64,000 bases of DNA. Origin: Magnetococcales bacterium. GTDB lineage: Bacteria > Pseudomonadota > Magnetococcia > Magnetococcales > Magnetaquicoccaceae. The notes under the pieces were generated by a model, which saw nothing but the letters and a program-made list of their open reading frames with translations, made no database searches and had not been told where the DNA came from. The translations under genes and the position numbers were made by a program. How positions within the stretch are numbered: position 1 is the first letter of the stretch; each line of letters starts with the position of its first letter. Shown here in pieces: positions 18,715-54,224 of the stretch. Where the stretch lies: NCBI GenBank assembly GCA_015231755.1, contig JADGAZ010000002.1, positions 124,001 to 188,000 on the forward strand. The letters are read 5' to 3'.

Positions 18715-19995
18715 TCAATCCCCCTCCGAATCCGGAACATTCTCATCGATGATGAAATCGATGGTCTCACGGATCGCCGTGGTGGTGTTGCGGAACTTGA
18801 GTCGCTTGAACGCCTTGATCCCCAACTCCCGCACCACCTCGGCCAACAGGGCGTTCAGAAAACTGTGGGGCGCGGACTCTACGTCGGCAAAATCAAAAAT
18901 GACCACCTTGCCCTCGCGGGTCGCGGGCAAAAGTCGCCGGTTGCGGAATTGAATGGCCTCCTGCTTGTCTTCGGCGTACCGCCCGAAATAGTTGCTGAAC
19001 TGGATAGGGTACTCATTGGAGACGCCATTGACCGGTCCATTGCCGCCTTCTTTCGCCGCCGCTTCCCGGAATTCACTCATCATGCGTTGCAGGCTCAGAT
19101 TTTCCGAAAAATGACCCAACCGCAGCAGAATCAGCACAACCGTACCCGGCCAGAAAAATCCCAGCGTGCGTTTCGTCACATCCATGGGCGAAACGTGAAC
19201 CAATCCATTCCCGGATAACAAATACATATCCGCATGCAACTTGCGGATGATATTGCTGGAAATGAACAGACCCACTCCCGCATTGTTCTTGGCATCATAG
19301 GGACGATTCATCCCGAATGTGCCAGACACTTGAGGCTTCAACGCATATTCAATGGCGCTGGCATGATCCTCGAATGCGGGATAGGTCTGCTCCAGATGTT
19401 TCTTGATTCCGATCCCGAGATCGGCAATGACACAATGCAATTCATTGCGATCCTTGTACCAGGTCAACTGGACGATGGAAGGAATGGTACGCACCCTGTG
19501 ACCGGTTCGATTGGCAAGGCTGAAGGGTCCATGCTCAATAGTATTGTACAACAATTCCGAAACAATGTATCTTAGAGTGTTCTCATATTCAATATTGAAA
19601 CCTTTCAAATAACTTCCGATGCTGGACATGGCCAGAAGAAAATCTCTCTGATTGCGAATAGCGATCAAAGGTTTGAATGGATCCCCTCTGAAATTCTCAT
19701 TTTCATTATACAAGACTTGCGACCACCCGCGCGCGCCCATGAGTGACCACATATGTCCAGGCGTCCCTTTGATGAATTGGGATTGGATGGTCAGCTTCTT
19801 TCCAAGCAGTTTCTGTTTCCAGATGTAGGGCACAAGCAGGGCAAGCGACTGATAATTCGCTTTGCGACAGGTATCCAGATCAACCACCAACTCGTGGTCC
19901 GGAAATTCCCACACAAAGCGACTCAGGACCGCATCAAAATCGACAATTCCTTGATTCCTGAACGAAAAATATTCAGGAAGTTTCAAGATCTGCAT
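18715..19995 (-). CDS. STAS-like / HATPase / STAS-like (DUF4325-type) regulatory protein
   Basis: Three parts can be seen in 426 aa. Residues 1-80 look STAS-like (ELVVDLDTCRKANYQSLALL). Residues about 135-265 form a GHKL ATPase module with N-box ELLYNTIEHG (147-156), G1 box DLGIG (192-196) and G2 box NAGVGLFIS (238-246). Residues about 325-425 resemble the STAS-like DUF4325 domain (VVIFDFADVESAPHSFLNALL). Known pairings of such domains act as anti-sigma factor kinases with their antagonists; carrying both in one chain suggests a self-contained switch, but no sigma factor is adjacent. There is no phospho-acceptor histidine domain, so this is not a typical two-component sensor. Confidence 0.68.
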   Translation of the reverse strand: MQILKLPEYFSFRNQGIVDFDAVLSRFVWEFPDHELVVDLDTCRKANYQSLALLVPYIWKQKLLGKKLTIQSQFIKGTPGHMWSLMGARGWSQVLYNENENFRGDPFKPLIAIRNQRDFLLAMSSIGSYLKGFNIEYENTLRYIVSELLYNTIEHGPFSLANRTGHRVRTIPSIVQLTWYKDRNELHCVIADLGIGIKKHLEQTYPAFEDHASAIEYALKPQVSGTFGMNRPYDAKNNAGVGLFISSNIIRKLHADMYLLSGNGLVHVSPMDVTKRTLGFFWPGTVVLILLRLGHFSENLSLQRMMSEFREAAAKEGGNGPVNGVSNEYPIQFSNYFGRYAEDKQEAIQFRNRRLLPATREGKVVIFDFADVESAPHSFLNALLAEVVRELGIKAFKRLKFRNTTTAIRETIDFIIDENVPDSEGD

Positions 19996-51456: not shown

Positions 51457-52158
51457 ATGGCCCCTGCAACCGGCATCCTGCATCTTGGCGACCACGCCAT
51501 GCCCTACACCCTGGTGCGCCATCCCCTGCGCACGCGCCTGAGTCTGCGCGTGACCGCCGCGGGTGTCATCGAGGCCCGCGCCCCGTTACGCATGGGCACG
51601 CCCCTGGTGGAGCGGTTCATTCGGGAGCAGGCCGACTGGCTGCTGTCCACCCGGCATGCGGCCCTGGAAAAACGTCCCGCCTTGGCGGACGGCGCCCTGT
51701 TGACCCTGCTGAACGAACAACTGACCCTGCGGGTGGTCGCCGACGGCACCCGGGTGCGACGGGCAGGCTCCATCCTGCACGTCCCCGCCCCCCTGACCCC
51801 GGACGGGCTGGAGGCCACCTTGGAACGGTGGTATCGCCAACAGGCCCATACCCATCTGACCACCCGTCTGCGCCTCTGGGCCGAGGGGATGGGGGTCACG
51901 GTCCACAAACTGACCATTCGCGGCCAATCCACCCGCTGGGGAAGCTGTTCGTCCAAAGGGGCCATCAGTCTCAACTGGCAATTGATGCTGCTGCCCGCCC
52001 GGGTGGTGGACTACGTGATCGTCCATGAACTGTGCCACCGCCACGAGATGAACCACTCCCCGGCCTTCTGGGCCAGGGTGGGAGCGGTGCTGCCGGAGTA
52101 TGAACGGTTGCGGGGGGAGCTGAAGCGGGCACGGATTGGGCATCATCAGATCTTATAA
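51457..52158 (+). CDS. YgjP-like metalloprotease (M48/DUF45 family)
   Basis: The 233-aa protein has the zinc-protease motif HELCHRHEMNH near residue 190 and WGSCSSKG before it, the YgjP/WLM-like (DUF45) pattern. No signal peptide or membrane segment is seen, so it is cytoplasmic. The physiological substrate of this family is not settled. ATG 51457 is chosen; ATG 51499 would also fit. Its stop TAA overlaps the stop of the convergent nuclease-like gene, both ends lying in TTATAA. Confidence 0.84.
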   Translation: MAPATGILHLGDHAMPYTLVRHPLRTRLSLRVTAAGVIEARAPLRMGTPLVERFIREQADWLLSTRHAALEKRPALADGALLTLLNEQLTLRVVADGTRVRRAGSILHVPAPLTPDGLEATLERWYRQQAHTHLTTRLRLWAEGMGVTVHKLTIRGQSTRWGSCSSKGAISLNWQLMLLPARVVDYVIVHELCHRHEMNHSPAFWARVGAVLPEYERLRGELKRARIGHHQIL

Positions 52159-52701
52159 GAGCTTTTTGATTGCAACCCGCTCACCAGACTGTGTACACTC
52201 GATTTCTCTATATTCTTGAGGAGTATGATTGGGTTTTCGAGGTGTTGCGACAAGAGGCCGTGTCGGCTTTTTAGGAAGAAGTGGTTCCCTTGCCAAACAA
52301 AAGACAACGAATCTCCTCTTCAGACCATCCAGAACCGATGCATCATAAAACCGCTTTAAAATACAATGGCAATAGTCTAAAAAACAGGATGAACTTACAA
52401 ATTTATTCACAATATCACCATTATCAAAAGATGTCGATTTCAATTCGACAAAAACCAAATAATCTTCTCCATTATAAGTTGTCATAATAACAGCATCACA
52501 AACTTTCTGATGAGTACCATCCAACAGATATTGGGTAAATCTTTTGCCAACATCTGCAAAAAACAGAATCGACTCATCGGTCTGCAAACCTTCAATAACT
52601 ACCTTTTTCATCAGAGTTGATACATCCATTTCAAACACTTCAAGGCAACGTTGATGCGCTCGCTCAATCTTGCAGATTTTACCAAGAGCCTCAAATTTCA
52701 T
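52153..52701 (-). CDS. PD-(D/E)XK-type nuclease-like protein, partner of the ATPase
   Basis: The 182-aa protein has a pattern expected of the restriction-endonuclease fold: an Asp at 69 (KVCDAVI), 16 residues, then VELKS with E86 and K88 on the next strand. This fits D-X(n)-EXK of PD-(D/E)XK nucleases; a basic, Pro-rich tail follows (about 140-170). The start overlaps the ATPase stop by four bases (ATGA). The DNA is A/T-rich here (16 G/C in the 60 bases from 52381, against 36 in the 60 from 51961), unlike the neighbours, suggesting transfer. It could also be a non-catalytic partner. Confidence 0.64.
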   Translation of the reverse strand: MKFEALGKICKIERAHQRCLEVFEMDVSTLMKKVVIEGLQTDESILFFADVGKRFTQYLLDGTHQKVCDAVIMTTYNGEDYLVFVELKSTSFDNGDIVNKFVSSSCFLDYCHCILKRFYDASVLDGLKRRFVVFCLAREPLLPKKPTRPLVATPRKPNHTPQEYREIECTQSGERVAIKKLL

Positions 52702-54095
52702 GCGAGATCCACTCCAAATTCCAGGATTTCCTCCTGAATTCGGTTCATCTTCAAAATGCTTTCATCAAAATCTTTCACCTCAATACCAAGCATCGCGCTG
52801 ACATCAGCAGCAGTAAAGGTATTCACACGACTTCTTTTAGAATTACCCGGTAGCAACGTCAATGCCGGACCGGCATTGTAAACCCGTATCTGATCCACAG
52901 ATAAAAGCTCATCGCGATGATAACCATGTTTCGTCATCACCAGCACCCGCAACGACTCTTCAAGATGATTCATCATGATCAATGTATTCAACTCCTTAAT
53001 CAAATAATCACTGTGCGTGGTCACGAATACCTTGATCCCGCAATTCACGAGGCGCACAAACAAACGCGCCAACAGACGCTGATTTTCGGGATGAAGATTG
53101 ATTTCCGGCTCGTCCACCATAAGCATTTCACCAGGCTGGGCCAAATGGCGCAAATACAGGCCAATGGAAAGCAGGGATCGAACCGCGCTGGAGCTTTCGT
53201 TCATAGTCAATCGGCTGGCACGATTTTTCTGCGGCACAAAGTATAATTCGCTTGACACGACACGATACTCACCACCAATCAACGCATGAAAATCCGCCAA
53301 CAGATCAGGATGCTTCTCTACCAAAAAACTGTCATTCTTGACAATACTCTCAAAATCTCTTGTAAAATCGACATTATCTGTAACCGGAAATGGATAATAA
53401 TTATACGCTTTCTTCATCAATTCAAACACATCCAAATCCTTTCCCATATTACCCATCTGTTCCAAAAGCCGATTGCGGGCAAAATCCAACTCTCTCAAGA
53501 AAATGGCCGCCCCGGTTCGTTCCGCACTGGCCATGAAGACCGATGGCAACACAGGAGAAAGAAACAGATCCAACAGCGCATCGTTGATCATGCCCTGCAT
53601 CGCTTGAACAGAAATAGTTTTCTGCTCCCCTTCTTGCAACCAGAAAATCTCAAGAGTGGTTTCATTGGACTTTTTCCAAAAACGGATCAAATCTTTCGTA
53701 CTGGATTTAAAATTTTTCTCAAAGGCCCGGTCCAACCGGATTGCACTCTCCGCAATCTCCAACCTAAACTGAGAACCTAAAAAACGCTCAGGACGAGAAG
53801 CAAAGACCTTGTGAAGACTGTTCGAATAACCCTGGCATCCATTCTGAATCGCCACTCCGACATTTTTACTGATCTTCTGCAAATCAATCTTTGTTGAACC
53901 TTGCTTCATTAACAAATCGATATGACGCGTGTCGAAGGTTATTTTTATGAATTGGCGCCACAGTTTCAGAAATCCATAGAAAGCATAGACCGCATAGGTC
54001 TTCCCTGTATTGTTCTTTCCACAAATAATGGTCAGATCGCCAATCTCAAAATCAGCAATTTTCAGCACACCCAAATCATTCAAAAAAATCTTCAT
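52698..54095 (-). CDS. ABC/OLD-type ATPase of a putative defence pair
   Basis: The 465-aa protein has Walker A CGKNNTGKTYAVYAFYGFL at about 25, a signature-like SSAVRSLLSIGL near 307, Walker B GEMLMVDEPEINLHPEN near 335 and the H-loop TTHSDYLIKEL, the order seen in SMC/OLD-like ATPases used by many anti-phage systems. A helical coiled region lies between. There is no TOPRIM nuclease domain, so it would need a partner; the overlapping small gene supplies a nuclease-like one. A/T-rich composition sets it apart from the chromosome. Confidence 0.83.
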   Translation of the reverse strand: MKIFLNDLGVLKIADFEIGDLTIICGKNNTGKTYAVYAFYGFLKLWRQFIKITFDTRHIDLLMKQGSTKIDLQKISKNVGVAIQNGCQGYSNSLHKVFASRPERFLGSQFRLEIAESAIRLDRAFEKNFKSSTKDLIRFWKKSNETTLEIFWLQEGEQKTISVQAMQGMINDALLDLFLSPVLPSVFMASAERTGAAIFLRELDFARNRLLEQMGNMGKDLDVFELMKKAYNYYPFPVTDNVDFTRDFESIVKNDSFLVEKHPDLLADFHALIGGEYRVVSSELYFVPQKNRASRLTMNESSSAVRSLLSIGLYLRHLAQPGEMLMVDEPEINLHPENQRLLARLFVRLVNCGIKVFVTTHSDYLIKELNTLIMMNHLEESLRVLVMTKHGYHRDELLSVDQIRVYNAGPALTLLPGNSKRSRVNTFTAADVSAMLGIEVKDFDESILKMNRIQEEILEFGVDLA

Positions 54096-54224
54096 GGCGC
54101 ATCACCCCTGCAAATCAACCATTACCCAGGAAACCAGTATAATAAAACAAGAAAGCCATGTCCACACAAACTCTTGAAGACCACCCCTTCCCCCCACCGG
54201 ATTTTTTGGGCAAACTCTGTCGTC

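Follow-up and report, generated by a model that had tools for sequence, protein, structure and literature searches.

Organization and composition of the gene pair

The window analysed in this work, a stretch of 64,000 nucleotides from a Magnetococcales genome, carries two adjoining genes on the minus strand, referred to here as A and B. Gene A (52698-54095) encodes an OLD-type ABC ATPase of 465 amino acids, assigned to the PDC-M47A/PD-T4-4_A family from its open reading frame, PADLOC and Pfam matches, sequence motifs and AF2/Foldseek modelling. Gene B (52153-52701) encodes a PD-(D/E)XK-like nuclease of 182 amino acids of the PDC-M47B/PD-T4-4_B family, assigned from PADLOC, a held-out HMM, conserved residues and an AF2 model. 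The stop codon of A and the start codon of B share the motif ATGA at 52698-52701 (minus strand), so that both protein lengths and the four-base overlap are as given in an earlier note on this DNA; translational coupling of the two genes through this overlap is possible. A candidate sigma-70-like promoter, TGGACA-17-TATACT, lies upstream of A at 54136-54164 (minus strand) and matches 10 of 12 consensus positions, sites of this kind being no commoner than chance.

On one side the pair is flanked by a YgjP-like metallopeptidase gene (Pfam), which follows trpB and trpA, and on the other side by glycosyltransferase genes. The hexamer TTATAA at 52153-52158 is common to the stop codons of B (minus strand) and of the metallopeptidase gene (plus strand) and forms one edge of the cassette, as judged from the sequence and from a related genome in which the site is empty (G149, below). 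No integrase was found among the open reading frames neighbouring the pair and no notable flanking repeats, as a transposon signature, at the cassette edges, in agreement with the earlier description of the pair as standing alone at its locus.

The pair differs in composition from its surroundings, with 42.1% G+C vs 60.4% in the remaining window, and a recount of the segment 52381-52440 gave the 16 G/C of 60 reported before. It is the sole strongly A/T-rich stretch of such length in the window, all stretches of 1943 nt outside it having at least 53% G+C. The G+C content at third codon positions (GC3) is 0.50 for A and 0.31 for B and about 0.8 for the flanking genes. The second lowest-G+C patch of the window (18715-19995, minus strand, about 48%) encodes a protein of 426 amino acids that ends in a STAS-like DUF4325 domain at its C-terminus and has, judged by eye, a histidine-kinase-like ATPase segment.

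When the pair was compared with its copy in the sister genome of the same genus (G069), dN/dS was 0.27 for A and 0.32 for B, which shows that A and B are genuine genes kept by purifying selection. The dS values (0.11 for A, 0.18 for B) are lower than that of the neighbouring glycosyltransferase gene (0.34), which may reflect a later exchange or merely the different composition.

Family assignment and conserved residues

The ATPase motifs named in the earlier note, i.e. Walker A GKNNTGKT, Walker B MVDEPEINLHPE and the H-loop TTHSDYL, are all present in A. The motif residues are G26, N28 and K32 (Walker A), R193, S302 (signature), D328/E329 (Walker B) and H361 (H-loop), and they (including K32, R193, S302, D328, E329 and H361) are invariant in an alignment of 13 homologues. 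Residues 1-458 of the 465 match the PADLOC models PDC-M47A (596.5 bits) and PD-T4-4_A (503.7 bits), the match to the AriA model being far weaker (82 bits only), and A also matches Pfam AAA_15 (4e-23). For the AF2 model of A (pLDDT 83.7) the best Foldseek matches were PtuA, with Rad50 and AriA within the top 50.

The best model match of B was PDC-M47B (4.6e-13, 47 bits), followed by PD-T4-4_B (2.6e-9), the PADLOC B models scoring 35-47 bits overall. No Pfam or NCBIfam family was matched by B, a sequence profile search of the PDB found nothing, and Pfam searches with 19 B homologues returned scattered weak single matches only. Residues D69, E86, L87 and K88 stand at the positions claimed before, and the active-site pattern is conserved: in an alignment of 19 B-type partners E24, D50, D69 and K88 do not vary and position 86 is occupied by E or D, and a second set of 14 homologues, headed by IMG/VR sequences, shows the same for D69, K88 and position 86. 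Identity of B to other family members is about 14-26%. The AF2 model of B (mean pLDDT 76) places D69 before a strand at 70-76, then a strand at 79-88 ending with E86-L-K88, a helix at 94-119 and a strand at 128-136, and this predicted order of secondary structures is that expected for a PD-(D/E)XK core. Foldseek searches with B gave weak, non-significant matches to FokI, BsmI, Cap4, Bse634I and other restriction-type nucleases (best E=0.011), with no significant match in the PDB and BFVD.

The linkage of the two genes was followed through homologues from whole genomes, plasmids, phages and IMG/VR with HMMs for A and B built without the window pair and without its sister. In the window these held-out HMMs found A with 494.6 bits and B with 87.3 bits (E=2.3e-25), each as the sole match. 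At loci where A scores above about 220 bits, B adjoins it wherever the locus extends far enough (the loci L080 and L081 are fragments ending before the position of B). A B-type partner is absent at generic OLD-ABC ATPase loci below about 170 bits, namely L003 and L027-L036 (eleven, from relatives) and L063-L067. The locus L018 is a contig-end fragment. One locus with a low-scoring A (L062, 126 bits) has an adjoining B, which belonged to the B training set. Since many of the positive loci were used in HMM training their scores are not independent, and the window and its sister constitute the held-out test. A homologues with an adjoining B-type partner occur on plasmids, in phages and prophages and on chromosomes. 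The 19-member B set matches both PDC-M47B and PD-T4-4_B, which suggests that PDC-M47 and PD-T4-4 are one family.

With a nearly full-length ATPase match and an adjoining gene that matches the B model, the pair is a member of the PD-T4-4/PDC-M47 family. The earlier note had read the locus as an OLD/ABC-type ATPase with a PD-(D/E)XK-like partner, likely an anti-phage module, and had proposed it as a candidate new defence system matching none recognised. The first part holds, given the conserved D69, K88 and E or D at position 86 and the order of elements in the AF2 model. The novelty does not: a profile match to a named system had been set beforehand as its refutation, both proteins match the PADLOC models of PD-T4-4 and PDC-M47, and the same architecture has been published for PD-T4-4 (PMC9519451) and, in PMC12137116, for WonAB and for 'OLD-ABC ATPase + novel REase' operons. 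The reading as a novel system was rejected because of these matches and this literature.

Distribution, mobility and insertion site

Homologues of A (E<=1e-30) occur in 12 of the 398 genomes of the phylum, a patchy distribution, and the pair in the window is a cassette-like insertion. In G149, which belongs to the same genus, the metallopeptidase and glycosyltransferase genes have their matched parts separated by 91 nt and the cassette is absent between them; in G177, also of the same genus, about 1.1 kb of unrelated sequence is located at the cassette site. In the sister genome the pair again adjoins the glycosyltransferase gene at the equivalent position, on a contig that ends within the metallopeptidase gene. 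The gap between these two genes may be an insertion hotspot. The insert of G177 (L093, G177:C129:7000-11500) possibly contains an Rpn/PD-(D/E)XK transposase-like gene, as judged by eye.

Homologous A+B pairs were also detected on small plasmids and in a Vibrio phage of the Peduoviridae, where the pair lies between a recombinase gene and that of the CI repressor. Two small ColE-like plasmids (4.8 kb in E. coli and 4.3 kb in Klebsiella; L038, NZ_CP051743.1, and L039, NC_009652.1) have as annotated genes essentially those for replication (rop, HTH protein) and the pair. A distant pair adjoining a resolvase gene on the E. faecium plasmid CP003352.1 (L044, 3001-4931; A 228 bits and B 36.5 bits with the held-out HMMs) carries the family into Bacillota. 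Searches of E. coli genomes with the DNA of a prophage homologue gave no match and with that of a plasmid homologue matched two plasmids; WonAB DNA was not found in viral contigs when these were searched by two published primers.

Proposed mode of action and relation to known systems

The pair belongs to a defence family whose action against phages is already established in E. coli and V. cholerae, and is not a new kind of system. We consider it quite probable that it is an anti-phage system of the PD-T4-4/WonAB type (PADLOC PDC-M47), in which a PD-(D/E)XK nuclease licensed by an ATPase acts through abortive infection; for the complex, the trigger, the nuclease activity, its substrate and the abortive outcome we infer from the relatives. 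Protein A would dimerise around ATP and hold B in a complex, acting as the sensor of infection and as the licence for B, a small nuclease with a predicted catalytic core of D69, E86 and K88, probably assisted by E24 and D50. Upon infection A would activate B, an essential nucleic acid would be cleaved and growth would stop.

In WonAB both genes are needed, overproduction of WonB is lethal only with ATPase-competent WonA, and the effect of WonB is a halt of translation with genomic DNA intact, rRNA or tRNA being suggested by the authors as the target (PMC12137116). ATPases structurally similar to A act with tRNA nucleases in Septu (PMC13096335) and in PARIS (PMC12409363). Because of these relatives the likeliest substrate of B would be host RNA (tRNA or rRNA) rather than DNA. 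The cited literature describes no substrate for PD-T4-4, hence the translation-arrest step is taken from WonAB alone. B is distant both from the PADLOC B models and from other family members, so its substrate may differ, and we tentatively raise the possibility that the divergent B of this subgroup is specific for one RNA of the host or of the phage, e.g. one tRNA, which would be an unusual substrate for the PD-(D/E)XK fold and a target unlike those of WonB and PD-T4-4_B.

The substrate is also the point at which the strongest alternative departs. Within the same family B might be a DNA nuclease that degrades the DNA of the phage or of the host, with A as the sensor of phage DNA (or of its ends), as in Gabija or the OLD nucleases. 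The fold is mostly that of DNases, restriction enzymes acting on DNA head the weak Foldseek matches of B and the fold of A resembles Rad50 and SMC heads, but WonB, the closest experimentally studied relative, spares genomic DNA, and the similar ATPases of PARIS and Septu drive tRNA cleavage, which leaves DNA cleavage an unlikely reading, if one to be taken seriously. It is improbable that the genes are an addiction module of the toxin-antitoxin kind in which A is the antitoxin, serving the maintenance of a plasmid or locus instead of phage defence: they overlap, and on the small ColE-like plasmids such pairs are nearly the sole annotated cargo besides the replication genes, but PD-T4-4 was obtained by selection against T4 (PMC9519451), and the toxicity of WonB requires WonA and its ATPase, which rules out simple sequestration for WonAB (PMC12137116). 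A housekeeping operon of DNA repair with no role against phages is scarcely credible, in spite of the ordinary neighbours (trpA, trpB, the YgjP-like gene, glycosyltransferases) and the pair at the same site in the sister species, since most genomes of the phylum lack A, the site in G149 is empty, the composition is foreign and relatives reside on phages and plasmids.

Under the favoured assignment to the PD-T4-4/WonAB type, a defence family that has been dissected by experiment in WonAB now extends to a Magnetococcales genome, and the divergent homologues gathered here fix which residues of the nuclease are conserved. What the PD-(D/E)XK partner cuts is a directly testable question of the whole family, in which the window copy is not special.

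The similarity to other ATPase-nuclease systems is limited. Gabija (GajAB) likewise has an OLD-type ATPase within a two-gene defence system, with a Toprim nuclease fused in GajA and a UvrD-like helicase as GajB (PMC10952713); A has no Toprim match and its partner is not a helicase. Septu (PtuAB) and PARIS (AriAB) use a related ATPase fold as the sensor with a nuclease partner, but this is an HNH (PtuB) or Toprim (AriB) protein as opposed to PD-(D/E)XK in B, which has no HNH, Toprim or DUF4435 match in Pfam, PADLOC or NCBIfam. Membership in Gabija, Septu and PARIS was rejected because there is no Toprim, HNH or helicase partner.

The best model for both proteins is PDC-M47 of PADLOC 2.0 (A 597 bits, B 47 bits), a system that is a computational candidate only. 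PD-T4-4, recovered from an ICE-like element by selection against T4 in E. coli, has demonstrated anti-phage activity (Vassallo et al. 2022, PMC9519451) and the same two genes in equal order, A matching PD-T4-4_A over residues 1-458 and B matching PD-T4-4_B. The E. coli cassette sits on a mobile element, whereas the window pair has neither an integrase nor a surrounding element, and its B is divergent and scores higher on PDC-M47B, by comparison of profile models. WonAB, from WASA-1 of V. cholerae, was related by its authors to PD-T4-4 and to the 'OLD-ABC ATPase + novel REase' operons of Krishnan et al., a group whose members differ, as the authors note, in the inserts of the ATPase, in extensions at the C-terminus and in some cases in the nuclease (PMC12137116). 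WonB (16.1 kDa) is shorter than the 182-aa B, and K34, R182, E300 and H333 of WonA are equated with the motif residues of A on the basis of the motifs. WonAB and the window pair share the same arrangement, in which the gene of an OLD-type ABC ATPase precedes that of a small nuclease of a PD-(D/E)XK variant (PMC12137116 for WonAB).
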